Source: Sipunculus nudus
Taxonomy: Eukaryota; Annelida; Sipuncula; Golfingiida; Sipunculidae
Reading direction: 5' to 3'
Assembly (NCBI GenBank): GCA_026874595.1
Contig: CM049320.1
Span: forward strand, 21,275,714 to 21,339,713
Length of the DNA stretch: 64,000 nt
The notes under the pieces: model-generated
The model's database searches: none
What the model saw: only the letters and a program-made list of their open reading frames with translations
Told to the model about the DNA's origin: nothing
Part shown: positions 3,640 through 61,534 of the stretch, one piece after another
Numbering within the stretch: the first letter of the stretch is position 1
How the letters are laid out: each line of letters opens with the position of its first letter
Program-made: the position numbers and the translations under genes

Positions 3640-5345
3640 TATGATTATCTAATGAAAAAAATGCTAAAATATCTTTCCTGAATTTTCTTAACCATACTAT
3701 AATACATCTAGAAAACGAAATATCAGTAATAATGGGAAGAGGTGATTAAAATAAACACATCGATCACTGGAAGAGTTTGCATGATACGTTACAAGTGTTG
3801 TACACTTTATACATTAATTTGATACATTTTTTTGTATAAACTTTGTGTTACTAATCACACCTTACATGCTGTGTGAAACAAAGAGCCAAGGAGATATAAT
3901 CTAAATACGAAGGCCTATTAATACTTATATAGCATATCGATTTTGTTGGACCCTTCTTTGGGTTCTGCCATGGGTATACGCAGTTTGTGTTATTTCCAAG
4001 TGCAACACTTGTAGAGCGCCTTTTCACTTCAAGTTCCTCTACCGAATAATCCCTTTAGAGAGAGACTATACAAAATGATACTTAGTAGATAGTTCTGACT
4101 TTGAATATTGTAATAGACGTATATTTTAATATAAATATATATTACGCTTTTTGGTATGAATTTAATAACTTTCCAAACGTATTTAATGAGAGTCGGATCT
4201 CCGTCACAATTAGACAAGTGATTTTCGGTGAACACGAAAAATACTAACAGAAGAAATCGGGAGATTTTTTTAAGTTATTTGATAATACAAGAAAACTTTG
4301 TATCATGTCTCAATGCGGAAATATCTTTTCTGAATATTCTAAACCATACTATTATAGATCTAGAAAACAAAGTATCAGTTATCATGCGACGAGGCGAGTT
4401 AAATAAATACATCGATTACTTGAAGAGTTGGCGTGATACGTTACAAGTATTGTACACTTGATACCTAATTTTTTTTATAAACTTCATGTTACTAGTTACT
4501 CCTAGTGTTGTATGGAACACGGGGCCAAGGAGATATAATCTTAATACGAAGGCATAGTAATACTGATATAGTGTATCGATTGTGTTGGACAAACATAACC
4601 CTTCTTAAGGCTCTGGCATGGGTAAACGTAGTTTATGTTATTTCCAATTACAATACCTGTAGAGCGCCTTTTCACTTCAAGTTCCTCCATCGGATAATCC
4701 CATTTAGACAGAAAATATACAAAATGTAACTTCAGTAGATAGTTCTGACTGTGAATATTGTTATAAAAGTATTGAATCTCAGGAGCACAGGTTCTACTTT
4801 TTTCGATATACATTACGGTTTTTTGTAGGAAAGAAATATCTTTCGAAACGACTTTAGTGAGAGTCAAATCTCCGTCACAATTAGACAATTGATTTTCGAT
4901 GAACACGAAAAGAATTTAAGAAGGAACCGGAAGTGTTTTTAGTAATTTGATTAAACAAGGAAAACTATGTATCATGTTTAAATGCGGAAATATCTTTCCT
5001 GAATTTACTAAAGCATTCTAAAAGAAATCTAGAAAACAAAATATCATTAATGATGCGAAGAGGCGAGTAAAATAAATACATCGATCACTGGAAGAGTTTG
5101 CATGATACCTTAGAAATGTTGTACACTTGATACATTATTTTTTGTATAAACTTTGTTTATGTTACTCATCACACCTTACATGTAGTTTTCAACACAGCAC
5201 CAAGGAGATATAATCTTAATATGAAGGCATAGTAATACTGATATGGCATATCGATCTTATTGGAGAAACAAACCTTTCTTAAAGTTCTAACATGGGTTTA
5301 CGTGGTTTATGTTATTTCCGAGTGCATTACCTGTGGAGCGCCTTT
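3640..5345. repeat. Tandem repeat of 0.64-0.68 kb, about 2.5 copies
   Basis: CCAAGGAGATATAATCT recurs near 3887, 4524 and 5201. It is followed in each copy by 'cgaaggc..ta.taatact' and then 'gtagagcgccttttcacttc'. The block 'gcggaaatatctttcctgaa' also recurs, near 4316 and 4986, and a partial leading copy starts about 3640. Copies are visibly diverged. Minus-strand frames in two copies both start near ENxLSNCDGD (about 4220 and 4900), but the frames are broken elsewhere, so I treat this as a non-coding repeat or a decayed duplicated sequence. Confidence 0.8.
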
Positions 5346-6335
5346 TGTTTACTAATTTCATGATTTCAAATTGTATATTTTTTGTCTGCTACGTTACGAT
5401 GTTTCTTCTTTTTTCGTGTCGTAATGAAAAGAAAAAGAAATAAATAATAAATGTACTTATTGTCTGAGACGAGAAAAATAGGAGGAAAGTCTATAAAAAA
5501 ATTTAAACGTCCTGAGACAGCTTTTTCCTTTGAATACTATCATATTAAAAAACTGATTACATTAACTTAATTCCGAATGTTATCGCACAGATAATACGCA
5601 TTATTTTTAACCGAGTTTGAAGTGTTTTTTTTTTGCTCTTACAAATACAATGGTTGTTTATGGATTAATCTTTAGAATCTGGTTTAAAAGACATAAACAG
5701 GAAGTTTGTCCATTTAATATTTCACGAAATATCAATCAGTTAAAATGTGTCTCAAATGATACATCCTATGTTTATCCAAGGATGGTGTCTTGTCTTGATA
5801 TAGTTCTAATTTCATACACGGTGCATCCATTTATCAATTAGTAATCATATTTTTTAATTTGAAATCCTATGATTAATCTAGATGGAGGCATTCGCCGAGC
5901 ATAATGGAAGCTTCCAGAAGAAGCCCACTATTGAGCAATGGTGGGGAAGCTTCCATTGTGGCATTCACGACAAGGTGTAAAGGTCACGGTAAAAATAAAT
6001 ATCAAATGCAGTTCTGGGAAATAATACCAATATTGTGCCCAAATTTCGACTTTTGTAAATCACCCATGTTGGAGAACTAGCGCAAGCGGAGAAAAGGAAA
6101 AAGAGTCAACTTAGGGGTCTTCCCATATAGTTCCTATCGGTTCAAAAAAATAACCCAAATATGAAAGGAAATTAACCCATTAACCCGTATAAGCCTCCCC
6201 GTTCTACGGGGAGGGGGGGGGGGGGGCTTAATTATATATCAACTTACCGGTATGCTGCGACCGATATGATTTTCAAAGGAAATTCCCGACAAAGTCCACA
6301 AAAAGTAAATATATGCATGTCTTTGTAAGTATTTA

Positions 6336-7334: not shown

Positions 7335-8090
7335 GCTTTAGCGATCACACTTTGTCCGTCGTCCGTCCGCTTGTCCGGCCGGCCGTCCATAACCAGGGCA
7401 CATGTTGTAACCGGTAGACCTAGAAACTTCTAGCTAAACATCCAGGGAGGTCCTAGACAACCCCTTGGAAACCTGAAATTAGGTCATGGTGACCTATATT
7501 TTGTGACCTACGGGCCGAAAACATGATTTTGAGCACCATGAAACTCAGACGGGGCACAAATTGTATAAATTAGGCCTAGAATCCTCTGACGTAACATTAA
7601 GGGAGTTCCTATAGGCAAATGTCCATGGAAGAGTGAAATTAGGTCACTTTGACTTATATTCTGCGACCTATAGGAAAAGATGTCATATGAGCACCCTGAA
7701 TGTCAGATGGGCACAAATCGTATCTGTGAGGTCTAAAATCTTCTTAAATAAAATTCAGGGAGGTCCCAGGCAAATATCCTTGAAAATCTTAAATTAGGTC
7801 ACTGTGACCTACATTCTGTTACCTATTGGCTAAAAAGTGGTTTGACCACAAAAACAGTCAAATGTGGCACAGAATGTATCCAATTGGCCTAGAATCTTCT
7901 GACCTAATCTATGCAAACCTGCTACATTACAGGCTAAAACATAATTTGAGACTGCTAACGTCCGACGGGTACGCATTGTATGCTTAGGCCTAGGTCCTGG
8001 GCAAATCTCCTTTGAAATTTAAAATTAGGTCATGGTGACCTATATTCTCTGAGCTATGGACTAGAAACATGATGTTAAGCCTTATGGCTG
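7335..8090. repeat. About 155-bp tandem repeat with AGGTCAnnnTGACCT palindromes
   Basis: The block 'aaattaggtca..gtgacct' followed by 'tattctgtgaccta' recurs near 7477, 7636, 7791 and 8023. Between copies are 'cagggaggtcc' and 'cagatgggcacaaa'-like blocks. The array is preceded at about 7338-7375 by a TTTGTCCGTCGTCCGTCCG segment, a type I associate with dispersed mollusc repeats. Perfect IR3 palindromes occur at 7481-7495, 7796-7810 and 8027-8041. The array abuts the left end of the giant inverted repeat. Confidence 0.8.
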
Positions 8091-9219
8091 ATGTCAACTG
8101 ATCAATGACCAAAATAAAACAACTATTAATGCTTTTTTTATTCCCTAGAAAATTCAGATGACACTTTTTTGTTTCGTTTCATTTTACAGACTACAATTCT
8201 AAGGTTTTCTGTTAATATTTTAGTATCGTGAATTACCTACACTGAGCTCCCCTAACTAATAAATCTCGTGCCATATATAATATGCAGATTTGGGTAGGAT
8301 TTCAAGATTACATAGATTTTAAAACAGTGTGATTCTAAGGATCATGCTTCAACGTTATCTTAAATATATATTACCATTTGACTGCTTTCTCATTAAGTCT
8401 CAAAAAGAAGAGAGGACCTAAATTTGCAATAATACTGAAAAAAAGGCAGAAGAATCCTTAATTAACAGCCTGGATACAACGTTTTGCTCCACAAAATGAG
8501 AAAGAAACATTTTTTATTGGATTTAAAAACTTCGCACTTGTTTACCGATCTGACCTTGACCTTACTTAAAATTTCATCAAATATGAGCTGCAACTGACCA
8601 CTTATACAAATAATGTTTTTGTGGATCATAAATGGATAGCATGGATAAAACTTTTCACTCAGGACGGGTAGTATAAAAAAAAACAAATTATTTTAAAATA
8701 TCTGCTGTTTCATAAGAGGGGCAATTTTTGCATTAAATTAAATACTTAAGACGTTACAGAAATTTTCACTACCCCTACCTCCATCCTGGAAACACAGATT
8801 TATGCATTTTCTTCGCTTGGGTGGTTTATAAACGAAGCGAACCTCTTTTTCACTTGAATCTGCCCTGACAATAATCCAGAGAGCTACAGCTAACTATTGA
8901 TACCATTAATTAGCATATGAATCACAAATGGACAGCTTGGGTAAAACGTTTCACTTAAATAAAGTTATAACGAAGAAAACTGTTTGAAGGAAATTAAGTT
9001 GCATGCACTTGATGACCCCTCTGACATTGACCTTTCACAAAATATCATTAAGCATGATTTTAGGTTAAAATGTAATTTCTACTCTTACATATGAGGGGCA
9101 ATTTCTTGCAATTTATTAAATACTTATGAAGTGACAATTTTTTTTATTACGCCAACCCCCATCCTAGGAACACAAATTTACACATTTTCATTGCCGGATA
9201 AGTTTATAAAAACAACATC

Positions 9220-9523
9220 GGCTTCTGTGGCTCAGGGATAGATCACCGGACTCAGAGCCGGGAGGTCCTGAGTTCAAATCTCAGCCTAAAGGGATTTAAA
9301 TGAAAATGGCAGGAAGCGAGTGATACCGCCCAGTCAAGTGTTCCGAAACCGGAATGGAACTCTGCAGATGTTAATAAGTAATAGCTTAAGAATTAGATAA
9401 GTCAGCATTAAAAATGAAAGCGGTTACCTCCATGTAAAATTATTTAAAAGAGTGTGTAAAAACATGCCTTCACAAAATATTGCACTTGCGTCCACCGTCA
9501 AAGAGACGTTAAGCCGAAACAAG
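9220..9523 (+). mobile_element. tRNA-derived SINE
   Basis: The 5' end reads like a tRNA gene with pol III promoter boxes. An A box TGTGGCTCAGGGATAG lies at 9226-9241 and a B box GAGTTCAAATCTC at 9270-9282, about 29 bases apart as in tRNAs. There is no proper acceptor stem and no mature tRNA fold to the end. An unrelated body of about 220 bp follows, ending with GTCAAAGAGACGTTAAGCC (9497-9515), a tail block I associate with mollusc tRNA SINEs. The element is missing from the matching position of the right arm, so it inserted after the inverted duplication arose. The exact 3' end is uncertain. Confidence 0.75.
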
Positions 9524-10324
9524 GTACCAATATAAACTTTCTAGGCGATGGGGTGAGCAATTCGTCTGAAACCTCTCCTGGTCATAGTCTATAATAAATA
9601 TTAATGAACTATATTTATTTTTATATGGATTATAAATTTAGTTAGTTTGATAAATCGAGTCACTCTCCATGGCTAATATGGTGTGTTCGGTAGTGTCTGT
9701 AGAGATGGGAAACCTCTCCTTCTATAAGGAAAATTTCGGCATCACTAGAAAAAAAATTCTGAATTACCTTAAAATGGCCTCACTTATACGAAAATACCAT
9801 ATTAAATCTTTATTCTTTCATAGAACCAACATTACCGTTTCTTAAGAACTCAGCCATAAAAATTAATTTTTTTAGATGTTTTCACCCAAGCATAACAAAA
9901 ATCCGAACCGCCGTGCATAGAATATTAAAATAGGAGAAAGAGTGGCTTTGCTGATGAGGAGCTTTACAAGAATTTACGTTAATTTACATTTAGTTACCAG
10001 GATACTTAATTTGATTTAGCCCGCCAGCTGAGACCCACACAAAAAGTACAAGTCGAATGAAAACCATAACGGCAATTCAGACTGGCCTAAAGTCTCATAG
10101 AAAAGTCTTCTTAAAGACCACGCTGAATCAATACTTTGTTCCCACGTCTTTGTACAACTTTTATCACAATGTTTATATTAAAGTTATTCCATTAGTAACT
10201 AAAAGCCAGCAACTCTTGAAAGAAGCAGCGAAAGATATGTGATATTTTAAGAAACTATAACGGTGTTTACTTTTTGTAAAAAGTCGGGAATTACGATGGC
10301 GTACGTCCCCTGAAGCGATTGTAA

Positions 10325-10830
10325 CTGTTTATCCATGTGTGACGTCACGTAACACAGGTTTAGTAATAGGGACGTATGTGTGACGTCACATTACCCATGT
10401 TATATAGGAGAGCCTTATGTGTGACGTCACATTATACATGCTTCCTAGAAGAGACGTATGTGTGACGACACGTAATTCATGTTATATGGGAGAGCAGTAA
10501 AGGTGATGTCACGCTATCCATGTAATATAGGAGAGACTCAGTGTGACGTCACATTATTAACATTATTAAGGAGAAACGTATGTGTGATGTCATATTATAT
10601 ATACATAATATATAGCAGAGACGTATGTGTGACGTCACATTATCCATGTTATAAAGGAGAGACTCAGTGTAACGTCACATCATTCATGTAGTATAGAAGA
10701 GCTGCATGTGTGACGTCAGATTATATATATATACATAATATATAGCAGAGACGTATGTGTGACGTCAATAAATATTATTCATGTTGTATAGGAGAGACTG
10801 TGTGACGTCAGATTATAAATAAATATATAC
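10325..10830 (+). repeat. CRE-core minisatellite, left-arm array
   Basis: About 12 units of 38-47 bp follow the pattern 'tgtgtgacgtcacattatcc' then 'atgttatataggagagacgt'. Most units carry the palindrome TGACGTCA, the consensus full cAMP-response element bound by CREB/ATF proteins. Some units have decayed cores (gacgaca, gatgtca) and some have an inserted 'atatatatacataatata'. The reverse complement of the right-arm array is clearly homologous. Confidence 0.88.
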
Positions 10831-11092
10831 ACATAGCCCAAAAGCCTCAAATTATAGCAGAATCAAAGATCTTTATCAAATAAAATGTAGGACAGATTAA
10901 ACGGAACGAGTACGATGACGAGAGAAGAAGCAATTTTAAAATTGGGACACCGACCCATTTTCGTTCTTTTTTAAATGAGTAGAATAATTGTTTACAGGGT
11001 TCCATTCGGATACCTGACAAATCTTAATCTAAACACGTCCAACGAATCAGACTAACCAGTTTGTCCAAATGAAAAAATATGCTTCACATGTT

Positions 11093-11310
11093 CAGGCGCG
11101 GATCAAGTTTTTTTTTTTTTTTTTTTGCAGGATTGGGTCAACGGGTGTCATGCATAAAATTGTCTAAAAAAAGGTTATTGATTAAGAGCGGGGATGGGGG
11201 TCTCGATCCCCGACAACCCCCGTCAAGCTTTGTCTAAGAACAGGGTCGTCGGTTGAGAACAGGAGAACCCCCCCCCCCCCTCTCCCCACCACCACCTTGA
11301 TCCGCGCCTG
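11093..11310. mobile_element. Non-autonomous hAT-like MITE
   Basis: Perfect 15-bp terminal inverted repeats CAGGCGCGGATCAAG (11093-11107) and CTTGATCCGCGCCTG (11296-11310) bound a 218-bp element. The terminus resembles the CAGGxGCGGATC type of hAT elements. It is flanked on both sides by CATGTT (11087-11092 and 11311-11316). A 6-bp duplication is shorter than the 8 bp usual for hAT, so the superfamily is provisional. The inside holds a T20 run and a C13 run and no coding. Related internal sequence is present in the right arm near 15790-15860. Confidence 0.8.
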
Positions 11311-12597
11311 CATGTTATCATAAACAACTACTGGGATCTTCAACTTCTTTAAAGCACAGTAAACCACTTGCGGTCACTTTTTTTTGTGGACATGTGTGCT
11401 GTGCTACTTCCAACTTGTATATAGATAAACATGGAGGGGGTGTTTTCGTTCACTTCGCTGTATGTTATTATGCGTTTCTAATGACACAGGTTTGGCTTAA
11501 CAAAGGATGATGGCAAACTATAGTATAATTGTAATTAGAAATCTTATACGGCCAAATACTATTTACGAATGTTATTATTGAATTGCATATATTTTGTGCA
11601 AATAGAAAAAAAAGTCAAGGTAGAACTTCACAGTTAATAGAGTATCATCTTATGCAATAACAATGTAATTTTAATTCGTTAAAAGAGATGTGGTGATATT
11701 TCAGCTCCAGCATCGGGACTAATTTGATCTAAATCGTACAGAAAAATCGTAGTGAAAAGTCCTTATACCGTCGTATTCGTCACCCGGCTTGCGACAGCCG
11801 GGTTTTAAACTTTATGGAAAATAGCGGCCCTCGATGAAGAATAACTGGGAGGATTAACCAGGGTTCGATAAGGGGATGCGACACGAACGTACACAGGAAC
11901 CATTGTCAAGGTAGGTATGTGTGTGTGGAGGGAGTGCTATGACAATTGCCGGGACGTGCAGCGGTTGAGAAATAACCTTATTTTGCGACCACGCCCAAAT
12001 CCGCAAATTTTAGTATGATTAACATACGCCACTCCTTATACACGTAAGGTCAGAAATGCAACAAAAATATAATCCCCATTATCGTTGTTCTAAAAAAAAT
12101 TATTTCTTTCAAATCAGTAAAACTTAATTAATTATTCATGAATGAATCATATAGGTTTTTCCATCATCTTTTAAGCAAACAGCTTATGCATTTTATCTTT
12201 TCACTATTCAAATAAAATCTAAATTCCAGTCCCTATGTGATGTCCCGATGTAAGAAGTGAAACCACAAATCGGTCAAAGAATATCAAACTGGAAAAAAGG
12301 GAAACTTTTCATGAATATATCAAATGGGCCGCAGTGGAATTTGTTTAAAGGAAAATGGTTTCGCTTTGACTTCCGCCTGATACTGGATAGCCGACATTTT
12401 TATCTACCCTATACGATGTTCTTAAGCTAAACGCTAGCTAGCAGATTTAAGGTTATACAGGATCAGTTTTCCGCTCATACATATTCATTACACAGAATAC
12501 CTGTCGTAATCTTACACGCTGACAGAATGTATTTACGGTCTGAAGACCATGTTGCAGCCGAACTTTTTGTCCGCGAATTTTATACATTCCTTAGGAA

Positions 12598-13156
12598 CGT
12601 GCTTTGTTTCAACGAAACAATATTGCTTGATCAATACGAAACTGGTCCAAGACAAAAAAAAGAAATATGAGCGAAGAAACACTAAAATGAGCACCGTTTC
12701 GGGGGGGGGGGGGGGTTAAAAATTTCACATTATGAAGTTGCGCGATACAGCAACCATGTGGCGGGTGCACTAGATTATTCTAAGCCACTTATTGCGTCCG
12801 ATGCAAGTTTGTCTCCACTTGTGTACATGTTTAAAGCCTCGGTCACAACCCGCTGCGGTCACCGCAAACCGTAGATTACCGTGCGGTTTTGGGGACCGCA
12901 CGAATACTATAAACAAGCGGTTTAAGAAAAAATATTGGCAGATAGCATGATATACCAAGCAGAAAACATTATATTTGATGTATGTTAACAGGCCCCTTTA
13001 ATTGATAAGGTTGATACCGATGCTTCCATATCTTGCAAGGGTTAATTGTAAAATCATATTTCAATGATATATCTAGCATCAAGCGGCATAATGCTGACAT
13101 AAACCCCCTGATCATTTTACTATGATATATTTTGTTGTTAGTTTTCGAGAAGTCTT
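12598..13156. other. Spacer between inverted-repeat arms
   Basis: This segment shows no match to either arm. It contains a G15 run (12701-12715) and a locally quasi-palindromic GC-rich patch at 12839-12905 built on 'cggtcaccgcaaaccgt' and 'accgtgcggttttgggg'. No coding region is recognised. Confidence 0.55.
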
Positions 13157-13262
13157 CAGTGGAGGATCCAGAATCTCGGGAACAGGTGGGCGCTAATACT
13201 TGTTTAGCGGTTGATTGGTATTTTAAATAAATACTTTCTCAAGATGTGTATATATTTGTTGG

Positions 13263-13308
<46 letters not shown>

Positions 13309-13890
13309 TAATATTATTTTTTGTTTGTTTTGTAGTACAATCTAGAGGATTTTTTACAGCATATGTTAATAACAGGCACACAAGGGAGGGTTATGGGATG
13401 GAATGTTTAAATATGAAATGTAGTGGACAGTTTGTGGCAGGTTTCACAAAAAAGATCAGGAATTTCTGTTCCTGAACTACTATTCTCTTAAATGACTTTG
13501 CAAACGTAGTCAAACTTAAGGGTGGTGTCTCTCCTATATAAATTAGATAATGTTGGTTCACGTGTGGCCGGCTTTAATAATTACATTTCTTCAAAATAAG
13601 ATATTAAGTGGAAAGGCCAAATATACGATCCATCCCTCAGTAAAGAAAGTAGGACTGCTAATAAATCAAATAACTAACAGAGCTGTTCACAAAAATCCTG
13701 TAAGTTTTAATAAGAAGGTTCTCATCTGTGGATAACTTAATAATTGTATTTGCTGAGGCATTAGCAGATCTTTGAAAAATGGAAATTAGTTTTAAAAAAC
13801 TGGGGAAAATTGATTACATGACAGATGTTATAGCTGGACGGTCCGGTGGGGGGGGGGGGGGGGGGGGGCGTGCCATGGGGTCCTCCACTG
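13157..13890. mobile_element. Non-autonomous hAT-like element at the palindrome centre
   Basis: The termini CAGTGGAGGATCCA (13157-13170) and TGGGGTCCTCCACTG (13876-13890) are imperfect inverted repeats of the CAGTGGCGGATCC type seen in hAT elements. Near the right end is a G21 run (13848-13868), and inside is a (TA)n tract (about 13264-13298). Flanks GAAGTCTT and AGTCCTTA are similar but not an exact 8-bp duplication. The right arm of the giant inverted repeat starts immediately after the element. No transposase frame is visible. Confidence 0.6.
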
Positions 13891-14704
13891 AGTCCTTAGG
13901 GAACGTATAAAATTCGCGTACAAAAAGTTCAGCTACAACGGTGCACCTCAAATGATTTTATCGTGGCAGTTCAAGAAAATCTTAACCAGTCGGTGTTTTC
14001 TTCAGACCATTAGTACATTCTTTCAGCGTGTAGGATTACGACAGGCATTCTGTGTAATGAATATGGATGAGCGGAAAACTGGTTCTGTGTAACCTTAAAT
14101 CTGCCAGCTAGAGTTTAGCTGAAGGCCATCGTTCAAGATAGATAAAAATGTCGGCTATCCAATATCACACGGAAGTCAAAGCGAATCCGGTTTCCTTTAA
14201 ACCACTTCAACTGCGGCCCATTTGATATATCCATGAAAATCTTCCCTTCTTTCCAGTTTGATATTCTTTGACCGAATTGTGGTTTCACTTCTTACATCGG
14301 GACATCACATAAGGGCTGGATTTTCGATTTTATTTGAATAGATAAATAGAAAAAATGTCCTAAAATATTTTGTTCAAAGATGATGAAAACCTATATGATT
14401 CATTCATGAATAATTAAATAAGTTTTATTTCGACTGATTTTAAAGAAATAATTTTTTTTTGGAATACCGATAATGAGGATTATATTATTTTGTTGCATTT
14501 CTGATGTTACCTGTATAATGAGTGGCGTATGTTAATCATACTAAAATTTGCGGATTTGGGCGTGGTCGCAAAATAAGGTTATTCCTCAACCGATACACAT
14601 CCCGGCAATTGTCATTACACTCTCTCCACACACACATACCTACCTTGACGATGTCTTCGGAGTCCTTTCGTGTCGCATCCCCTTATCGAACCCTGATTGG
14701 TTAA

Positions 14705-15112
14705 AAGATCATTCTCGACGTGTAGTGAGAATTAAACATACCTATCAAAGGTGTTTTATTTTTTTAAGTCTGCTAGAAAACCATGTATCTGACATATTTG
14801 ACGTGACTTTGAAACTTGTATGCTAAAAACGGATCCAGGTGTAACACAGGATTATCTGCATTTACCAAAAACTTCACTATTTTGAACGGCTATTTCGTCA
14901 TTTTCAAACTGGGTTAGTATGTGCATGGGAAAACAACAACAAGCCGTGTAGGACAAAACAGGCATTTCAGACCCGGCATTCCGCGGTCGGTTTACAACTG
15001 TCATGCAATGAGTTGGGTAGGTATGATATCCCCACGGACCTTTCACGTGTCGTGAGTGCAAAATACTAGGTTTTATTCGTCTTGGGAGAGCAACGCACTC
15101 GTGGGGTGCTCT
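14705..15112. mobile_element. TTAA-flanked insert (piggyBac-type MITE candidate)
   Basis: In the left arm the site reads 'gaggattaaccagggttcga'. In the right arm the mirrored sequence is interrupted by 408 bp, with TTAA on both sides (14701-14704 and 15113-15116). Precise TTAA duplication is the hallmark of piggyBac-superfamily insertion. The ends (AAGATCATTC and the reverse complement AGAGCACCCC) match only weakly, and I see no transposase. Insertion into the right arm is the simplest reading; loss from the left arm is the alternative. Confidence 0.6.
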
Positions 15113-16484
15113 TTAATCCTCCCAGTTATTCTACATCGGGGCCGCTATTTTCCATACAGATTAAAACCTGGCTGTCGCAGGTCGGGTGACGAATACGACG
15201 GATACGGTCAAAACTGAACAAGTACACTTTACACTATTCTTTACGATTTAGATCAAATTAGTCCCGATGCTGGTGCTGATATATCACTACGTATCTTTAA
15301 ACGAATTTAAATTACAATGTTATTGCGTATGATGATACTCTATTAACTGTGAAGTTCCACCTTAACTTTTTTTCTATTTTTTAGTAAAGTTGCACAAAAT
15401 ATATGCAATTCAATATTAACATTCGTAAATAGTTTTTGGCCGTATAAGATTTCCAATTACAATTATACTTTAGTTTGCCTTCATCCTTTGTTAAGCCAAA
15501 CCTGTGTCATTAGAAACGCATAATAACATACAGCGAAGTGAACGAATTAACGAAAACACCCCCTCCTGATCAACACATCTTTTATTTTGATTTAAACAGT
15601 CAAACCACACACGCAGCTTAAAGTCGGCTATTCACATACCTTTCTAGTAGTTTTTAAGTGATTTCTGATTTACTCTGGATACATGTAGAAAATACCTGCC
15701 AAGAAACATTTCAATGACGCCCCTGTGGTAGAAATACGAGTTTGTCTATCTACAAGCTGGAATTAGGGTGAGGTATGAGTGTCTGTGGGGGGGGGGGGGT
15801 CTCCTGCTCCCAACCAAATACCTTGTTTTAGACAAATTTCATGGGTTTAGACCCCAACCTCCGTCATGATTCGTGGACGTGTTTGGATTAAGATACGTGT
15901 CAGTTATCCGAATGGGACCCTTTAAACTACTCCGCTCATTAAAAAAAATCACGGGTCGGTGTTACAATTTTGAAAATGCTTCCACGCTCGTCTTCCTATC
16001 TTCCTAGATCTGGTCTATACTCGGCCCGTTTCATCTGTCCCACATTTTATTTAATATAAATCTTTTATTCTGCTATAATTGTAGGCATTAGGCGAGGTCT
16101 AAGTAAAGTATTAACCGCCTTATACTTTGCTGATGCACGTCCACTATACTACAAACTTTCTCCGCAGAAAAGGTTCTCGCCTGGACGCTGTCCTAGAGGT
16201 ACTTTCTTGTCTCTTCCCCTTTCCTTTATAGAACCCTGACAGTTTTATTTCTCGAGTTTCTCGAAACCACTCTTGCGCCTGCCCTTTTTCGTACACTCTA
16301 AAACACGGATGTCATACGGGCTCCAACGCAGAAACCACGTACTATTTGATTAAAAAAACCTAACGTGTGCGTTAGCCGCGCGACAATCGCACACATATAA
16401 AAAGAACATGGCTTTATAACTTGTTGGATTTTCGCCGAGCGGCAAACCCATGCCAAAACGCATATTTAGAAAAGCATCCTTAAA

Positions 16485-17945
16485 TGGATAGTGTTAAGTC
16501 ACACATACGTCTTTCCTATATAACATGGAAAAAGCGACGTCTCACACACGTCTTTCCGTTATAACATGGGGAGCACCACGTCACTCATACGTCTTTCCGT
16601 TATAACATGGGGAGCGCCACGTCACTCATACGTCTTTCCGTTATAACATGGGGAGCGCCACGTCACTCATACGTCTTTCCGTTATAACATGGGGAGCGCC
16701 ACGTCACTCATACGTCTTTCCGTTATAACATGGGGAGCGCCACGTCACTCATACGTCTTTCCGTTATAACATGGGGAGCGCGACGTCACTCATACGTCTT
16801 TCCGTTATAACATGGGGAGCGCGATGTCACTCATACGTCTTTCCGTTATAACATGGGTAGCGTGACGTCATTCATACGTCTTTCCGTTATAACATAGGGA
16901 GCGCGACGTCACACATACGTCTTTCCGTTATAACATGGGGAGCGCGACGTCACTCATACGTCTTTCCGTTATAACATGGGGAGCGCCACGTCACACATCC
17001 GTCTTTCCGTTATAACATGGGGAGCGCCACGTCACACATCCGTCTTTCCGTTACAACATGGGGAGCGCGACGTCACACATTCGTCTTTCCGTTATAACAT
17101 TGGGAGCGCGACGTCACTCATACGTCTTTCCGTTATAACATGGGGAGCGCGATGTCACTCATACGTCTTTCCGTTATAACATGGGTAGCGCGACGTCATT
17201 CATACGTCTTTCCGTTATAACATAGGGAGCGCGACGTCACACATACGTCTTTCCGTTATAACATGGGGGGCGCGACGTCTCTCATACGTCTTTCCGTTAT
17301 AACATGGGGAGCGTGACGTCACACATACGTCTTTCCGTTATAACATGGGGAGCGCGACGTCACACATACGTCTTTCCGTTATAACATGGGGAGCGCGACG
17401 TCACACATACGTCTTTCCGTTATAACATGGGGAGCGCGACGTCACACATACGTCTTTCCGTTATAACATGGGGAGCGCGACGTCACACATACGTCTTTCC
17501 GTTATAACATGGGGAGCGCGACGTCACACATACGTCTTTTCGTTATAACATGGGGAGCGCGACGTCACACATACGTCTTTCCGATATAACACGAATAACG
17601 TTACGTCATATATACGTCTCTCCTATATAACATGAATAATGTGACGTCACACATACGTCTGTCTTATATAACATGAATAACGTTACGTCACACGTACGTC
17701 TGTCCTCTATAAAATGAACAATGTGACGTCACACATACGTCTCTCCTATATAACGTGAATAATGTGACGTCACACTGAGTCTCTCCTTTATATCATGAAT
17801 CACGTGTCGTCACACATATTCTCTCCTATGAATCACGTGTAATGTAAAGTCATTCATTAGGCTCTCATTTTAAAATGGGTAATGTGACGTCACACATACG
17901 TCCCTATTATAAAACCTTGGTAACGTGACGTCACACATTGGTAGA
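16485..17945. repeat. CRE-core 41-bp minisatellite, right-arm expanded array
   Basis: About 35 units are present. The central block (about 16560-17580) is highly uniform, with a 41-bp unit of 'acgtctttccgttataacat' then 'ggggagcgcgacgtcacaca'. The outer units (17580-17945) instead keep 'tcctatataacatgaataat' and 'gtgacgtcacac', closer to the left-arm array. In the core many units read CGACGTCAC or CCACGTCAC rather than the full TGACGTCA. The pattern is that of central homogenisation and expansion from an ancestral array shared by both arms. Confidence 0.93.
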
Positions 17946-19508
17946 CAGGTACAATCACTTCAGGGGACGTACGCCATCGTAATTCCCGACTTTTTACAAA
18001 AAGTACACCGTTATAGTTTCTTAAAAATAACATATCTTTCGCTGCTTCTTTCAAGAGTTGCTGGCTTTAAGTAACTAATGGAATAACTTTAATATAAATA
18101 TTTTGATTAAAAGATGTACACAGACGTGGGAACAAAGTATTGATTCAACGTGGTCTTTAAGAAGACTTTTCTATGAGACTTTAGGCTTGTCTGAATTGCC
18201 GTTATGGTTTTCATTTGACTTGTACTTTTTGTGTGGGTCTCAGCTGGCGGGCTAGATCAAATAAAGTATCCCGGGAACTTAATGTAAATGAACTGAAAAT
18301 CTGTTTTGTGAAGCTTTTGATTAGCAAAGTCACTCTTTCTCCTAGTTTAATATATTTTTCCCGTCGTTTCGGATTTTCGTTATGTTTGGGTGAAAAAAAA
18401 TCATTAAAAGTCATTAATCTTTTTTTTTTTTTTTTTGCTGAGTTATCAAGAAACGGTTATGTTGGTATTATGAAAGAATAAAGGTTAAACATGGTATAAA
18501 AGTGAGACAATTTTAAGGTAATTAAGAAACTTTTTTTATCGTGTGATGTCAAATGTCTTTAGGTCAATCCAGATTTAGGAAAGACGTTTAATCAACGCGC
18601 TTTTGTACAAAGCAAGTCTTTACTGTAAACATATTTCCCACGCGGGTTGCTACAGTTGAATATGGAACGCTCAACCCTCTCTGCTGGGGAGCCGGGTTAG
18701 ATCCTTAGCATGGCTTTGAAAGAGGGTTGTGGCCCGTCTTAAGGCGGGCGTGTTCCCCGTGTCGTAATTTCCCATCTCTACAGACACTACCGAACACCAC
18801 CCTGTGTTTATACACCACCATAGCGAAGAAAATGTATAAAAATGTAACAAATTGTCCCTTATAAGAAAGAGGAGAAATTTTACTTGCACATCAAGTGTAT
18901 GAAACTTATTTTTTTTAATATTTTGTTCTTTATACTAACCATCTTGAGTGGAAAATTTTATCCAAGCCATCCATTTACGATTCACAAACATATTATTGGT
19001 ATCAGTGGACAGCTGCAGCTCATATTTGATGCAATTAGGGCAAGGTCAGACCCTTCAAAAGTGCGTGGTTTATAAATCCAATAAAAACTAATTTTTTCTC
19101 ATTTTCTTGAGCAAAACGTTGTATCCAGGCTGTATATTAAGGATTCTTCTGGCCTTTTTTTCAGCATTATTGCAAATTTTGATCCTCTGTTGTTTTGAGA
19201 CTTACTGAGAAAGCAAACAAGTGGAAAATTATATTAAGGATAACGTTTCAGCGTCAACCTTATAATCCCACTGTTTTAAAATCTATGTATACTTGAAATT
19301 GTTCCAAAATCTGCATATTATATATGTCACCGGATTTAGTAGTAAGGTGAGCTCACTTGAGGTAATTCATGATACTAATATATTAACAGACAACCTCAGA
19401 ATTGAACTCGTTTAAATGAAACCAAAACATAGTGTCATCTGATTTTTTAAGGGAATAATAAAAGCATTAATAATTCGTTTTATTTTGGTCATTGTTCAGT
19501 TGACATCA

Positions 19509-19776
19509 AAACCATTCTGTAAAGTATTCCTACAGCCGCCTCTAAACCGAGACCGGTAACATTGAGAAACTCTCATTATATTAAATATGCAACATGAAGC
19601 ACAAATCGGATAAAACATCAGCACATAAATTTTTATGGATTCTCACACACGCTTTGGTATATTTCCCGCTTTTAGCCGTAATCACGTATATGCATTGTCA
19701 TGTGTTAGGACTATGATTTTATTAAACTCTAAAAGGTATGATTCACATCACTTAAATACATTAAATCAATTAACGT
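19509..19776. other. Short spacer outside the inverted repeat
   Basis: No clear match continues from the right arm, and no target-site duplication with the left flank is evident. Confidence 0.4.
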
Positions 19777-20264
19777 TTGTGTACAGAAGTTGATGGAAAA
19801 TCAGACGGATTGTAGATTTTTTCGCTTTTATTTTGCAAGTGTTTTGAATTTAAAAGAAGTTCGTGCCACTGCTATCATACTTTCCTATTTAAACACATGA
19901 CGGGGACTATGTGTGCCTCTAGGCCCTTGTTGTGTATGAACTGCTGTGTCCTAGTTATAGGATAACATTTCAGCTGTGCAAAACCGTAGCCGGGCTAGTA
20001 GATACCACAGTTGAATATTCTATATGAATTATTCTTTATCTAGTTTCAGGTTGATTGCTTATGAAGCTAGACGAACTTGTCCTTTTCAAAGATAAAAAAA
20101 CATATTACATTGCAACATTGGTCCGCTATTGGTATATTTTACATTGATATATCATTATCTTCTAATCTAAGAATTCCATTGCAAGAGGTACAGTAACGCA
20201 TGTGCGAATGAAAGCAAAAAAAATCTACAGTCCGCATGACCTTCCATCAACTTCTGTACACAAT
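19777..20264. mobile_element. MITE-like element with about 52-bp inverted ends
   Basis: TTGTGTACAGAAGTTGATGG starts at 19777. A mirrored CCATCAACTTCTGTACACAA ends at 20264, and the match continues inward for about 50 bp ('tcagacggattgtagatttt' against 'aaaaatctacagtccgcatg'). No coding is visible between them. No target duplication could be defined, so the superfamily is unassigned. Confidence 0.65.
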
Positions 20265-21390
20265 GGTGTCCATTGTGAAGGTGACATGAGGCATTGAAGC
20301 GGGATGCGACAAATATAGCGGGAAATTCTTACTTGTCAGTCTTCAATAGAGTCCCGTGGATCCACTTTACGCTCAGGAACATGTCTGTAATCGATTTTCC
20401 GGGACTTCGGTTCCATACTATACGATCTCTCCGATAGAGGCTATATCGTCCTCAGTGTCACACGTGACCCGCATTGGTTTACACACAGCGGAAGTGATTT
20501 AACTTAATTTGGCACGTGAAACGGAGAAAACTCGGTAACTTCAACGCCTGAACTAGGGTGGGTGGGAATTTTCTTTCAACCCTAACAGTTTACATATCTA
20601 ATCTTTATACGTCGCTGCAGCAGTGATCCAGATTTAAGCCAAATGTATCACGAGGTCTTCTGCAATGAATTTACCATGATTTAGGCATTTTGCCATAACA
20701 TATTTTGCCCGGGGCTTTCGTGCCTTGCGTCGTTACTGTCCGTCTAATCCCTATGTATAGTCCCGTGTTCTTCCGTTGAGAATAAACCAGTTTCCGTAGT
20801 ACATTTACTGACTGTAGGGGAAGTCAGTATCGAGTCTCCAGAAAAATTGACTGGAAGCTTCAGTGATCTTCTTGAAGGTCAAGATGAGTACATGGAAGTT
20901 CACAATCAACAGCTACAATGGATAAAAAAAAGGTCTTCTTTGACGAGTGAACTCAATTAACTTGAAAATGTAAATATGATAAATAAAAATGGATTAAGAA
21001 AACAAAGATTTCTTCTCATTACGCTTATATGTATTACAAGGTAGTTGTTCTGATCGTTTACTTTTTATTGAAATCCCAAGTTTGATATAATAAGTAGAAA
21101 TAAAATGATAAGTACAAAATAATAATCCAAGATTAACATAAACACGTGTAAGTTGTGACATATGTTAAACATGATGGTATAATTTACATAGAGGTAATTT
21201 TTCCAGAAGAATGTCCTTCAAACGAAAACCTACCAATTAACACCTAAGGTTGTGAAAAACCAAGGCGAACAAAGGGAAAATCGTACCTAAAATTTTATTT
21301 TGCGGTTTCATTAGTAAAATTCAGCAAAGAATTGTCCATGTCCATGTCCGGAAGCAGTACTACACGTTGTGTAGGCATTTTACCCTTTGG

Positions 21391-22600: not shown

Positions 22601-24474
22601 TATATATATCTTACTATTGGTCATAAGATCCCGCAAATGGCGGACATTAAGCATGGTAGTTGCCCTGGGTTCGATGATTGCGCAACGAAGACAAAGTAAT
22701 GACGAAAATGGGGGTAATTTTCACGAAATATCAGGCCAATCTGAAATGTCCCTGTTGACCTAGGCCATGTCCCAAATTACATGTCCTGACGCCGATAAAC
22801 GTCGCGCGAAAAAATCGCCCCAATATGCATCCGGCTTCATCCTAGGATGTGAGCCCTCTCCAAACAAAACCGGTAAAGCACAGATCGTCCAACGAAAGAA
22901 AAGGATAACCGTAACCGGACAGGAATAAGGGTTATATATATTACGGGAAGATCCAGGATGAGCCAATTAAGGCCTAAGTCCAGGCAAAGTTCAGGATTGC
23001 CGATGCTGCATAAAGGTCTACTAAAGGAAATCCAAGGTATCCGTAAATGCCGGACATTAACAGCCACTGTACGGAGGGTCAAGGACAATACCCCGAAGGC
23101 CTCTGCAAGTACAGCAAGTACGGCAAGCCACCGTGAACACTGTTATCCGGCATCTGACTTTGGCAAGACCGGCTTAATTTGGCACATACCTCTCCATTTC
23201 CGTTTGTATTTAGACATTTGACCGGCAATAAGCCAGTAGTTTACCACTGAAACCTCTGAAGAAATCGCCAATCATCCGATTTCCGACCGGGATAAGGACG
23301 AGTCCTGTGCTAATATACCCGCCGGCTATTCGACGGTTTTGCCCACGGGGTACCGTCGGGCGATTCGGCCCTGACTGTGATACTGTGTTTCGCGTTCATC
23401 TATTGTCCAAGGTAGACCTTGTTCTATCACGGCTCATCCGTGGCCTAACTGTACTGCAATAAATTGCTTTAAATATCACATATGCATAGAGGACTATAAA
23501 CATATATCAAATACTTATTTTTAATCATATTAAATTGACATTTCTCATGAAAGTATATGATCTTTGATCTGATAATTAATGACAAAACAAGTTTGGAAAT
23601 TTATGCATCATCATTTCCAGGAAAACTGTCCTAAAGTCAACGGATATTTAAAAGAAGAAATATTGATTTTTTTTCTTTGGTTTAAGTTTTCACAGGATCC
23701 TTTACCTGTTCATTTATATTCAGATAACAGAATACCCGGCGTAATGTTATGAGCCCACAAGGCCAACACAGGGGAGTATAAAGAAGCCGTCTTAATGCAT
23801 ATGTGCCAGTGCACACTGGGTTGACATGATAAATACTTTTCAAGGGTCACTTGAAGTTGGAACCTTTCGCGATTTTTTTTTTCATCTACTTCTTCTGTGT
23901 TGGCTTCATGAAAGGTCTTTAGGAAGTATCAAATGAAGCAGTTTAAAGTATGTTCCCGTGTTGTTCCTTTTTTGTTTAACGGTTTATCAGAGTGCCGCAT
24001 CCGTACGATGCAACCTCCACCAATCACTCAAGCTCATCCACACGGCTTTGTCGGCAGCCAACTGTCCGTCTTTCTGCGTGTTCACAATAATCATGAAAAT
24101 AAGCTGATGCTCTCGAAGCATTTCAGTTCCAAACATTTTCATAAAGCCTACGTCATTTATCCAAAACGGAGCCCGTCCGACTTCTCTGCGAGCTGCAAAG
24201 GGCATTTTCGGCAGGAATACGGACGGTGTTTTCTCGATCACTGCGGACTCCGCTGCGATAATGAGGGCTCGGCCGACGATCGCAGGTCACCAAAACCTGT
24301 TTTTAAATCAGCGATTTTCCAATGGCAATTTTTGAGGTCGCAGAACTCGTTAACAGGTCGCCCGTAGATCGCTCGTGCAGCGGCCAACTTGCGATCCATG
24401 TTCTGGCAGCAATCCGACGATTTTAGACGCATTTTGCTTTAAAATTCGGATGGAGGTGGACAAAGCTGTGCGGC
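22601..24474. other. GC-richer region of unknown origin
   Basis: From about 22760 the base composition becomes clearly GC-richer than the neighbours, and short motifs such as GGGCGATT and CGATCG recur (near 22816, 23354, 24278). Frames of up to 144 codons occur on both strands (for example 23933-24367 +), but none has a recognised domain and they overlap each other antisense. This may be a degraded transposon. Confidence 0.4.
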
Positions 24475-25201: not shown

Positions 25202-28200
25202 GAGAGTGGGTTGTGCTAGCACCGCCAAGGTCGGTGGTTTTCTTCAAGTTTCCTGTACCCCTACAGACTACAGATATATGGAATGATTCACGCTAGGGCT
25301 TATCAAGGGATAGTAGACAGCTAATAAAATGTGTAATTAGCGCGATTAAATACTTGTTACAAAAATGGGATTATAAAATTTTTATATATTTTAACAAATT
25401 TATTTAGCTCTACAAGCGACACAAAACAAAGGCCACCTCCCAAATAAATGCTTTATCGCGAATACTAAATTGCAGATTATATTTGTATGGTAATTTAAGA
25501 CATTTAATATATTGATAAAAGACATTTTGAATGGTAATTGTTTATATACAATGGCAGGAAAACAAATTTTAGTCGGCGTAAGCATATACTAAGAGATATT
25601 TCGTCTGGCGGCCTTTTACTTTTTATTTTCAGGTCTGTCCCAGTATTGTTTATGTTTATATTACTGATACTGTCCAAGGATTGTTGTTAGTATTTATTGA
25701 TTTTATTTAGAAATAGTTATTAGCAACTGTGATATAGAGTAGAGGGTTTAAGCCAGTCATACAGCCTTGGTTTCTTCTCGCTTAAGATTCCCCGACTACA
25801 TGTAGTTTTGAAGTTTACACCTCTTGTAATGTAACATGCTTGTGACAAAATGTAATCTGTATATTAACCCTAGGGTTCAACGATAAAATTTGGTTTATTA
25901 ATCCTTGAAATGAAAGTTATTAGTTAAAAATCAATCATCATAAATCAACAAAGGACAGTATAATTACAGGTATCGGTGTTTCTCGGTATGGTCATCGATT
26001 CCTATCTAACACTATTTAAATAGCTTCTCTACAAAAAGCAATATTTGGAATTTACTAAACCGACACTAAGCAGTGAGATTTGCGAAATACAATATTAATT
26101 CTGGGAATTACCTTAAAATATATTTAACCATAGGAAAACTGGACTTTTCCTACAGTTGTAATAAAATTTTTGATTTGTGTGTTTTTAGGTACCTGACACT
26201 GATTATCCAACTTTGTTAGATTTTTGACGCACCTTGGCCTCAATATAACAATGACAGTGCGGGTTTAAGGTTACATGAGACTTTTTTTCTCTTATTCATT
26301 CCTAATGAAAGGAAGACCCGATGTAATTCTACCCACAAATAAAGAAGAATACGGCGTTTTTAAAAAAACAGCTGGTTTAGGTTGACAAAGTCTTCTTGAC
26401 AGCAGAGTGGTTGCAGGATTTTTTCGGCATTGTATTTCTTTTTAACTGGAGTAGATATCACAGGCTAGTTCATTTTAAAGGTGTAAAAAGACCGTTTGTT
26501 TTCATGTTAGAAACTTAAACGGTGTTGAATAAATATCCATTCAGTCAGTATTTAACGGTTGAGAGTCAATTAGCATTAACATGTCCATTTAATGTGCTAA
26601 CCATTATTTGTAAGACGTAATACATCTTTAATGGTACAGGCTCGGTCTTCACAAAAGGAATAACGATTTCCTATATATGCCCTTTTCTAATTAGAAATTT
26701 GATGCTCTTAATTCTCATCAGAAATATGAATCTTTAACTTGATATATTTCGGTTAAACTGGATTCCTGGTATGGAAGTGTAAGACAAGTTACACCTTTTA
26801 AGATAATGGTTCATCATTTTCACTAATAAACTGAATATTAATCTAATTGAAAACTAATTGTTTGTATGTTATTGCCTTGAATGCAGCACTTTCGATAATA
26901 AGCTTGTGGGAAAAGAATATTAATCAAGGAAAGGTTATGTATGGCTCAGTTGTCGGGATATTTATTACTCGGATCTGTTTTACATACTAGGTATAATAAA
27001 TATTCACGAAACATTGAGAATTCTCATGTACACCAAACATAAAAACGTTGGGAATCGTGAGATAATAACGTGAGGTGATAGAGATACTTTTGCAAATTTA
27101 TATGAACCCCTAAAAGCAAAATAAAGTAATACTTTGTTACATGTACAGCGGGACAAATTATTTACGATCCAAAAAGAGTGTTTGGAATATACTTTTTGAT
27201 CGCATCTTATATGATCAGCACCATTGTTAAAACAACTTGTGAACATTTCTTAAACAATCAGGTTTCATCAAGAATCTGAAACGCAACCATGTTAACCCAT
27301 ATCCAAGGGCGAACATATAGAGGGAACGCAGGGCTCGCGAGCCTCTTTTGTCTAAAAATAGAAAAATAGACGCTTAATACCAAAAGGCCTGGTCTGGTTT
27401 TCCGTCTCACGCCATTTCCCTCTCCATACTTCTCCATGTACAAAGCCTACTGGCTTTCTAGGCAAACTATCCGCTCCTAATGACTGTCATTGGCCAATCA
27501 GACTCTCTTTCCCCGCTGTTTCCGGGATCGTTTGGTGTCAAAACAAAATACACCACACCATTTCACATCACGTGTCAACCGGAACTTGCATCACACGCTG
27601 GGGGTCAGACTTCAGGTTAGGATCAGAGCTTACGTGCCGTACGTTCCTGGTATGGAGTTTAAGAGTTTGAAATCCCTTCACCACTGACCAAAGAACGGTT
27701 CATGTTGCAAAGAAGAGATTCCATAATCCTCGCACATAATTTCTTCCGTTATTACTTAACTTTAAAATATGTTCCCTGCTCCCTTGCAGAAAATATTCCA
27801 GAAGAATGTATTCTAAATAAGTTTTATGCAGAGAAACCTCAAATAAAGTTTGACATGATCACTCGAAGGGTTTTTTCTTCATTACAATTTCAATATATTG
27901 TCAGCTTTGTTATCCATTCGTAAAAACATAAAACTTGACCATTGACCTTGTGATGTTGTGGAAACGGGCTCTATGTCAAGCATCAAATACAATAACGAGA
28001 AGAAACACAAATGTAATTAGTAATTGCAAAGAGATTCATGACATATTTAAATTAATCATTACACACTCATCGTTATTAACTTAAACATTAATTAATATAT
28101 TATATTCTAATCCGATACCATATCCATGCTTAGTTAAGCTTAATTATACAATACATTTCATGATAAAGGAATAGATAATATCAAGCCAATCTGTCTATTA

Positions 28201-29519: not shown

Positions 29520-29739
29520 ATTTTCATATAGTGCCTATGCTATTATAAACGTTTACGCTCCATGTAACACAACGGAGAAGATAGCTTTTTTGAACAACTC
29601 CGAACATATGCGATGGGCGTCTTAGACACCTCGGACTATACATTCTTGATGGGAGATTTTAATTCAGTGATAAATCAAAGTTTAGATATTATTTCAGGGA
29701 AGGAACATTAAAAAAAAAGAGAGTAGAGCTTTCAATGAT

Positions 29740-30324
29740 ATGATAAAACAACTTGGGTTGCTAGATATATGGCGTGAACATAACACAGACCGTAGGGACT
29801 ACACCTGGAGTAGAAATAATCCTTTCAAAGCAAGACGCCTTGACTATATATTTATCAATCCAACATTAATAAATAAAATAGATCAAGCAAATATACAAAC
29901 CTACCCTTCTACTAATCACAGAGCAATATCCGTATATATTAATTCCAAAGAACCAGAAAGGGCTCCTTCCTACTGGAAATTTAACAACTCTCTCTTGAAA
30001 GATAAGGAATATATAAAACAAGTAAAAGGTATACTTTTTTCATACACATCAGGATCTAAACAAACCCAGTATAAAAGCCCACAGATTAGATGGGATACGT
30101 GTAAAGTAGAAATTAAATCTTTTAGTGCAGGCTATAATAAATCTAAAGCAAAATCTAAAAAACTTCATGAAAATATAATCAATTCAAGACTAAAGGAGCT
30201 AGAAACGAGCATAGTGAATAACCCGGGCAATAAGATAATAGAAGAAAAATTATTACATGCACGTAAACAATTCGATTTAATAGCATTACACAACGCAAGA
30301 GGAGCCTTTACGCGCTCCAGGTGA
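29740..30324 (+). pseudogene. LINE endonuclease C-terminus and linker (open segment)
   Basis: This 194-codon open stretch covers the end of the APE-type endonuclease and the basic linker before the RT. The family's catalytic Ser-Asp-His near the domain end reads Thr-Asn-His (about 29911-29919). The His is kept but the Asp is replaced, which would be expected to impair nicking. The stretch ends at an in-frame TGA (30322-30324), and the next open segment continues in the same frame, so the stop is a point mutation rather than a true end. Confidence 0.85.
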
Positions 30325-30330
30325 ATATGG

Positions 30331-31263
30331 ATGGAAGAAGGGGAACGTAACACAAAATACTTTCTGGGCTTAGAAAAAAGTAGAGGTATATCAAAATGTA
30401 TACAAAACATTAGATTTAAAGACGGGAAAGTCGTCAGAACCCAAAAAGATATTTTAAAACGTCAACAAAACTATTATTTGAACTTATATAAAAATAAAAA
30501 TACAGATGAAAAGTTGCTTCAAGTCTTTATACAAGATATAGAACTACCACAGTTGAGTTACGAAGATAAAATGATTTGTGAAGGATTAATAACTAATGAG
30601 GAAGCTACAAAAGCTGTTAAAGAAATGAAAAACGGTTCCAGCCCAGGACTAGACGGTCTTACTACAGAATTTTTCAAATTCTTCTGGCCCGATTTATCTA
30701 AATTATTAATTCACTCATTTAATTATGCTTTCCACACCGGATCACTCTCAACCTCGCAAAAGAAAGGAGTAATGATAATATTGCATAAAGGAAAAAACTT
30801 GGAAAGAGACAATCTAAATAATTATAGACCCATCACTGTTAGTAATACTGATTATAAGATACTCGCTAAGACTCTTGCCATTAGATTACAAAAAGTAATT
30901 AAATCTGTGATCAATACAGACCAAACTGGTTTTATAAAAGACCGAAATATAGCTAACATCATCAGACTAATTGATGATGTCACAACATACACACATAAAA
31001 CAAAAACAAAAGGGGCCATATTAGCACTCGATTTCAGGAAGGCTTTTGACACTTTATCAAAAAATTATTTGACTGAAACATTCCGACTATTTGGTTTTGG
31101 AGAAAATTTTGTCAAATGGTTAGAAATTGTTAACAATGACACAAAAAACTGTATTCAGTACAACGGATGGTTAGGTCAATGGATTACTTTACAATGCGGT
31201 GTCCGGCAAGGCTGTCTATTATCGCCCTTGGCCTTTGTAGTCGCAGTGGAACTGCTGTCGTGA
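30331..31263 (+). pseudogene. LINE reverse transcriptase fingers and palm (open segment)
   Basis: This 310-codon stretch includes RT block SPGLDGLTTEFFK (near residues 104-116), LNNYRPITVSN, the first catalytic aspartate in LDFRKAFDT (about residue 238) and GVRQGCLLSPLAF near the end. It stops at TGA 31261-31263. A second TGA follows at 31270-31272, after which the same frame runs on into the YADD motif. The encoded enzyme would copy LINE RNA into DNA at a nicked target; here it is interrupted. Confidence 0.88.
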
Positions 31264-56258: not shown

Positions 56259-57152
56259 GTGTTTTATCATGATATAGACGTAAATGGGTGGGGATTAGGG
56301 ATGTTTTTAGCCCGATGTGGATGTAAATGTGTGAGGATTTGGGATGTTTAAGCATAATATGGATGTAAATGGGTGAGGATTTCGGAAGTTTTATCATGAT
56401 ATAGATGTACATAATACGGATTTAGAATGTTTTATCATGATAAACATGTAAATAAGTGAGGATTTGGGATGTTTTATCATTATATACATATAAATAAGTG
56501 AAGATTAGGGATGTCTTATCATGATATAGATGTACATAATACGGATTTGAAATGTTTTATCATGATAAACATGTAATTAGATGAGGATTTGGGATGTTTT
56601 TAGCCTGATATGGATGTAAATGTGTGAGGATTTAGGATGTTACAGCATGATATGGATGTAAATGGGTAAGGATTTCGGATGTTTTATCATGATAAAAGTG
56701 TAATTAAGAGAGGATTTGGGAAGTTTTATTCATGATAAAGATGTAATAAGATGAGGATTAGGGATGTCTTATCATGATATAGATGTATATAATACGGATT
56801 TGGGATGTTTTATCGTGATAAACGTGTAAATAAGTGAGGATTTGGGATGTTATATCATGATATAGATGTTAATCGGTGAGGATTTGGGATGTTTATAATC
56901 ATAATAAATATGTAATGAGGTGAGGATATGGGATGTTTTGTTATGATATAGATGTTGCTGGGTAAGAATTTAGGATGTTTTATTATGATATAGATGTTAT
57001 TGGGTAAGAATTTAGGATGTTTTATCATGATATAGATGTAATTAGGCAAGGATTTAGGATGTTTTATCATGATATAGATGTAATTAGGCGAGGATTTAGG
57101 ATGTTTATCATGATATAGATGTAATTAGGTGAGGATTTGGGATGTTTTTTCT
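56259..57152. repeat. About 43-bp minisatellite
   Basis: Roughly 20 diverged units follow the pattern 'ggatgttttatcatgatata' then 'gatgtaaatgggtgaggatt'. Unit length varies by small indels, and the right-hand units (56930-57130) are the most uniform. The ATCATGAT-like core is locally palindromic. No gene is attached. Confidence 0.9.
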
Positions 57153-57639
57153 TGACACATTAAATTAGGTTAACCACATGGTCATCTGTCGCAGATGGAT
57201 CGAAAGATTCGATTACATTATGGATTGCTCTTACAGATACTGATATAATAGTATTGGAGCATCTTCTTTAACTGGTATTGCAGACAGTTCATGTGTTATT
57301 TTATAATTGTAGTGAAAATAAGATATTAAAAATTAAAACAATCAGTCATTCACTGCACTGTTACCTGTCAGGTTGGCGTGAGTGCTGCCATCCTTAGGGT
57401 TCGAACCTCTTTCAGTTAAGTACTGTGGAGATTGCCGGGACTACTAATCTCAACTGTCAAACTAAAAAACATTTGTTACGTTTCAAGGAAACGGCATCGG
57501 TTTAAATTTCTCATGCGCTACTTACAAAATATTACGTGTTTCGTAAAGGTATTACTAATAAACACATATTTATCTGACTCGCTTTGAAACAATTCTTATC
57601 CAAACTATTTGCAGGGACCACATAACCCTCTTCACTACA
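57153..57639. other. Spacer, with a weak tRNA-like patch
   Basis: Around 57372-57412 a TGGCGTGAGTG A-box-like motif and a GGTTCGAACC B-box-like motif are about 30 bases apart. The surrounding sequence does not fold as a tRNA. This may be the head of a decayed SINE; support is weak. Confidence 0.25.
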
Positions 57640-61405: not shown

Positions 61406-61534
61406 TCCTCCATCTTCTGCTACGGTGCAAATCACCAAAGTATTTTCGCAACTTGCAGGGTCTGTGACTAATATGAGCAGTGCTACATGTTTTTGGTCTC
61501 TTTATTTTACAGAAACCACTTAAAAATAATAAAA

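Follow-up and report, generated by a model that had tools for sequence, protein, structure and literature searches.

An 11.4-kb fold-back with minisatellite-bearing arms in Sipunculus nudus, probably an old inverted segmental duplication

Introduction

What has brought two arms of several kilobases, each carrying a minisatellite, to lie in mirrored order around a short spacer: a mobile element with giant inverted ends, two separate elements placed head to head, or the inverted duplication of an ordinary piece of the genome? The question is raised by a locus of the sipunculid worm Sipunculus nudus, contained in a stretch of 64,000 bp (assembly GCA_026874595.1, contig CM049320.1, positions 21,275,714 to 21,339,713), hereafter the window. 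A first-pass annotation, made from the letters alone, had described a fold-back at 8089–19508 of the window and had suggested two possible origins, namely a foldback element of giant size and non-autonomous type, or an inverted segmental duplication. The features considered here are listed in Table 1.

Table 1 Features of the fold-back and its spacer (positions are those of the window).
Feature	Position	Strand	Remarks
Left arm	8089..12593	+	4505 bp; basis: self-BLAST, global alignment
Segment private to left arm	8834..9680 (inner limit approximate)	+	Read as SINE
41-bp minisatellite array, left arm	10335..10829	+	8 intact TGACGTCA sites
MITE, left arm	11093..11310	.	15-bp identical inverted ends; flanked by 6-bp CATGTT direct repeats
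Inner part of left arm, probably old dispersed repeat	12440..12593	+	Right-arm counterpart ~13897–14105
Spacer between inner ends of the arms	12594..13896	.	1303 bp; ~570 bp without the MITE-like insertion
MITE-like insertion in spacer	13157..13890	.	Abuts inner end of right arm; inverted ends share CAGTGGAGGA
Right arm	13897..19508	-	5612 bp; inverted relative to left arm; basis: self-BLAST, global alignment
Insertion private to right arm	14699..15114	.	~415 bp, at TTAA; left-arm site uninterrupted at 11848
Likely truncated relic of the left-arm MITE	15787..15836	.	Collinear place in right arm; both inverted ends missing
41-bp array, right arm	16498..17938	-	~35 units; 7 intact TGACGTCA sites

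Architecture of the fold-back

Global alignment and self-BLAST of the window confirmed that the fold-back is real, with arms that mirror each other in order; the first-pass annotation had placed the outer and the inner ends, as well as the 1.3-kb spacer, correctly. The inverted matches returned by self-BLAST were 8089–8690/19508–18916 (82.9%), 9740–10717/18548–17561 (82.4%), 10838–11049/16092–15867 (72.3%), 11433–11857/15566–15113 (85.6%) and 11856–12546/14698–13999 (87.7%), and the global alignment pushed the inner ends from 12546/13999 to 12593/13897. Chance similarity of the arms is ruled out, as none of 20 controls in which the right arm was shuffled in 3-base blocks gave an inverted match with the left arm at E 1e-5. 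At their outer ends both arms start with TGATGTCAACTGA... and agree to 97% over the first 32 bp of the global alignment. Allowing up to 3 mismatches, the outer 22-base pattern was found at two places in the window (0.00 expected), which are the two ends of the structure itself.

Over six curated non-satellite blocks, which account for 2592 aligned columns out of the 4505 bp of the left arm, the identity between the arms is 88.4%. The collinear part of the satellite adds about 380 bp to the match (10335–10717, self-BLAST), and the remainder of the arms is either private to one of them or without clear alignment. The mirrored match therefore stands, but its extent had been overstated when the arms were said to match over nearly their whole length. 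What had been said of their content agrees with the alignment: the arms have diverged by substitution, each has insertions of its own, and each holds a satellite, the 41-bp array. The divergence is uneven. Block identity ranges from 83.6% (10844–11040) to 93.7% (11433–11855), and the scatter of identity per 100 bp exceeds that of permuted columns (p = 0.0005, 2000 permutations). The longest identical run between the arms, 66 bp, is not significant by comparison with permuted columns (p = 0.078).

Recognisable protein domains in the arms were ruled out by a search of all six frames of 8089–19508, read with X at stops, which gave no Pfam family at E 0.1. Known structured RNA was ruled out as well: no Rfam family reached the gathering threshold anywhere in the window, and no tRNA gene was found. 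Elsewhere in the window, positions 29686–31263 hold a LINE-type remnant with an RVT_1 reverse transcriptase domain in 30325–31260 (E 1.4e-20); the adjoining frame, 29686–30321, has no Pfam match.

Repeats shared by the arms and private to them

The history of the 41-bp minisatellite differs between the arms. Because the inverted match 9740–10717/18548–17561 runs on through the outer 380 bp of the array in self-BLAST, the array was probably present before the duplication, a reading supported by this continuity. The register of single units is less clear. When compared with the 12 outermost right units, the first six left units scored best against right units 1, 2, 2, 4, 4 and 5; a positional partner is clear for left unit 1 only (0.85, the runner-up scoring 0.73), and the second and third score equally well with more than one right unit. 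Part of the right array (16498–17754) is homogenised, with 92% matches in TRF, and the palindrome TGACGTCA is intact 8 times in 495 bp on the left versus 7 times in 1441 bp on the right. Judged by these units, the right array appears to have grown later by near-identical copies, mostly without the palindrome, and its loss from most of the expanded array speaks against a conserved protein-binding role. The homogenised unit had no exact match in the viral collection (viral_contigs).

Tandem repeats are found in other parts of the window too. Positions 3660–5346 form a tandem duplication whose copies have diverged (78.8%) and whose period is about 650 bp, and 56260–57155 hold about 21 units of a 42-bp array that also shows higher-order periodicity at 125, 253 and 378 bp. 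A 3.8-kb minisatellite of CATCTTCTCCTCC type at 57649–61411 is extremely asymmetric between the strands, with a GC skew of -0.94 in 58001–60000, and several frames are open across its full length.

The MITE of the left arm has a likely relic in the right arm, with 43 of 51 positions identical when a C-run is included (E 7e-11) and 30 of 37 when it is left out (E 8e-6, reached by none of 200 shuffles). Since this relic sits at the matching place, the MITE would predate the duplication, which the alignment supports. The inner 150–240 bp of the arms have weak matches at 23680–23877 and 26259–26423, with E 4.6e-9 and 5e-4 for a two-arm profile in nhmmer; single-sequence matches to the same loci gave E 1e-7 to 6e-4 in small nhmmer searches. 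This inner part is probably an old dispersed repeat, although the family is weakly founded because no match at E 1 was obtained between the two outside loci. Their loose local alignment scored 511, below the shuffle maximum of 555. Matches of the two-arm profile with E 0.09 to 0.9 were excluded from this evidence, and a profile built from the two outside loci was not used at all, its matches to its own members being circular and those to the arms (E 0.033 and 0.75) weak.

More than half of the spacer is filled by the MITE-like insertion, the ends of which we take to be hAT-like; its flanks, AGTCTT and AGTCCTTA, are alike and not identical. Another dispersed repeat is seen at 12911–12994 of the spacer, which matches 52056–51972 (80%) and 35546–35469 (69%). 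Within the arms, 15622–15758 is present on the right only and weakly matches 43558–43696 (65%). The private segment of the left arm contains a second copy of an outer module (9074–9210 matches 8697–8832, 75%) and a tRNA-like stretch at 9227–9285. We read the segment as a putative SINE on the basis of this tRNA match, which lies below the Rfam threshold (22 bits against 29).

Outer junctions and flanks

Words shared by the two outer junctions, searched to 25 bp around 8089 and 19508, do not reach 6 bp; a single 5-bp match lies inside the left arm at one junction and just one base beyond the right arm at the other. The 8-mers abutting the exact ends agree at 0 of 8 positions, so that no target-site duplication is present there. 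When the junctions are shifted by 1–2 bp, a degenerate 10-bp duplication appears with 7 of 10 positions matching, which is the best of 49 shifts and has no shuffled control.

The left flank carries a tandem repeat (TRF period 157) which breaks off in the middle of a unit at about 8068, some 20 bp before the arm. It was not found at E 10 in 19509–20300 on the right or in the tested part of the spacer (12594–13160), which rules out a repeat continuing across the element; the best matches of the left flank in the rest of the window ranged from E 1.4 to E 3.7. If the 11.4 kb as a whole, or just the left arm, had been cleanly inserted, the repeat would be expected to resume on the other side. The break is only moderate evidence against such an insertion, as the repeat may also have ended by itself. 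The outer end had no exact match in the viral and prokaryotic collections (viral_contigs and genome_contigs), nor did a conserved arm block in viral_contigs.

Origin of the fold-back

An old inverted segmental duplication, forming a large and imperfect palindrome around a spacer, with later expansion of the right-arm array, is in our view the probable origin. A non-coding stretch of about 4 kb, in which a short 41-bp minisatellite and a MITE were already present, as probably was an older dispersed repeat, would have been copied in inverted orientation beside itself; we infer that this occurred once, by template switching in replication or repair. Substitutions and private insertions would then have set the arms apart, and in the right arm the minisatellite would have expanded and become homogenised. 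Such an origin is supported by the collinear mirrored arms, the junctions, the flanking repeat that is not regained, the TTAA insertion with its uninterrupted partner site, the lack of any Pfam family in six frames, and older repeats that the two arms share at corresponding positions, of which the MITE relic weighs more than the dispersed repeat and the array register. Against it stand the uneven block divergence, which no model considered here specifically predicts, and the fact that a nested old element could likewise carry a MITE and a dispersed repeat. The caveats given above on the dispersed-repeat family, the array register, the shifted junctions and the end of the flanking repeat count against it as well. 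Inverted segmental duplications and imperfect genomic palindromes have diverged kilobase-sized inverted arms, a spacer, no target-site duplication and pre-existing repeats in both arms, all of which are seen here; what differs is the 41-bp array within the arms, expanded in one of them only. It is unlikely that the fold-back itself has a function.

In the case of a giant non-autonomous foldback transposon, the arms would be its terminal inverted repeats, holding tandem repeats inside, and it would depend for its movement on a transposase from another source. We consider this unlikely, though the hallmark of the class, long terminal inverted repeats with tandem repeats inside them, is present. 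As far as the excerpted accounts of Tetris and Galileo go, these elements likewise have inverted arms with internal tandem repeats that differ in number, and the middle of Tetris, like the one here, is without coding capacity. Their target-site duplications and arm lengths are a different matter. Those of Tetris measure 8–9 bp in complete copies and 8–10 bp overall in the excerpt of PMC4079207; the 7 of 10 flank match at shifted junctions could be a decayed 10-bp duplication, but the exact ends have none. The terminal inverted repeats of Galileo are given as about 0.3–1.26 kb (PMC3573991, in excerpt), so that arms of 4.5–5.6 kb would be several times longer than those described. The agreement of the outer ends, which might seem to favour a transposon, is no evidence for one because any inverted duplication has matching ends. 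Furthermore, the outer end has no second copy in the window, the arms are made in part of older repeats and the interrupted repeat of the left flank is not regained on the right; the lack of a Pfam domain also counts against a transposon, while it would be expected of a non-autonomous copy. Of the two origins first proposed, the duplication fits what was tested and the transposon is only partly supported. More doubtful still is a whole family of giant non-autonomous foldback elements with satellite-bearing arms of this size, an unknown transposase and a potential as a source of hairpin siRNA. Among the bivalve and mollusc papers listed, none named an element of this kind.

It is also improbable, to a similar degree, that each arm is a separate copy of a satellite-bearing non-autonomous element of Helentron (HINE) type, the two lying head to head. 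In the excerpt of PMC7492417, the oyster Cg_HINEs, which are non-autonomous Helentrons, have short central tandem arrays between two flanking modules, subterminal inverted repeats, T-rich insertion sites and no target-site duplication. Both arms do have a central satellite-like array and lack a target-site duplication, the private insertions fit two independent copies, and the outer flank of the right copy is T-rich (GGTTT/TGATG, the slash marking the junction). However, the right copy is T-flanked at this end only, and the left copy lies at GGC/TGATG...TTA/GGAAC, which is not a TT site. Comparison of the two terminal 150-bp stretches of each arm gave no inverted repeat of at least 9 bp, the one found being of 8 bp in the left arm, so the subterminal inverted repeats expected in both modules are missing, and the two mirrored arms are a further difference from the oyster elements. 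The repeat broken off before 8089 also does not reappear in the spacer at 12594–13160. As for the 3' palindrome of HINEs, small hairpins are predicted in 12531–12610, without a control.

Inverted repeats are prone to misassembly, but a false inverted join or an unmerged haplotype is highly improbable here, as the first-pass annotation had held in calling the structure old: the arms differ by about 12% and carry private insertions, far from a sequencing copy, and a haplotype copy is not expected to be inverted with a spacer of its own.

Potential for double-stranded RNA

Perfect pairing between the arms would be possible in 26 runs of at least 19 nt among the 2592 aligned columns, 790 nt in total, the longest being the 66-bp run mentioned above. 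It is possible that a transcript across both arms would form hairpin double-stranded RNA. Substitutions between the arms comprise 115 transitions and 185 transversions, the corresponding counts for a tandem duplication elsewhere in the window being 72 and 92 (p = 0.28), and thus show no excess of the transitions that would preserve pairing. This control was used out of four, two of the others being small (2/3 and 21/21) and one void, as overlapping copies had been aligned to themselves without differences. A dedicated function as a hairpin is conceivable, but nothing here supports it.

Significance

If copies with the same ends occur at other loci, the fold-back would represent an unusually large foldback element. 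As an inverted duplication, it would be a well-preserved record of how such a duplication and a minisatellite evolve. Each arm serves as the empty-site control for the other, so that insertions and array growth can be placed in order of time.
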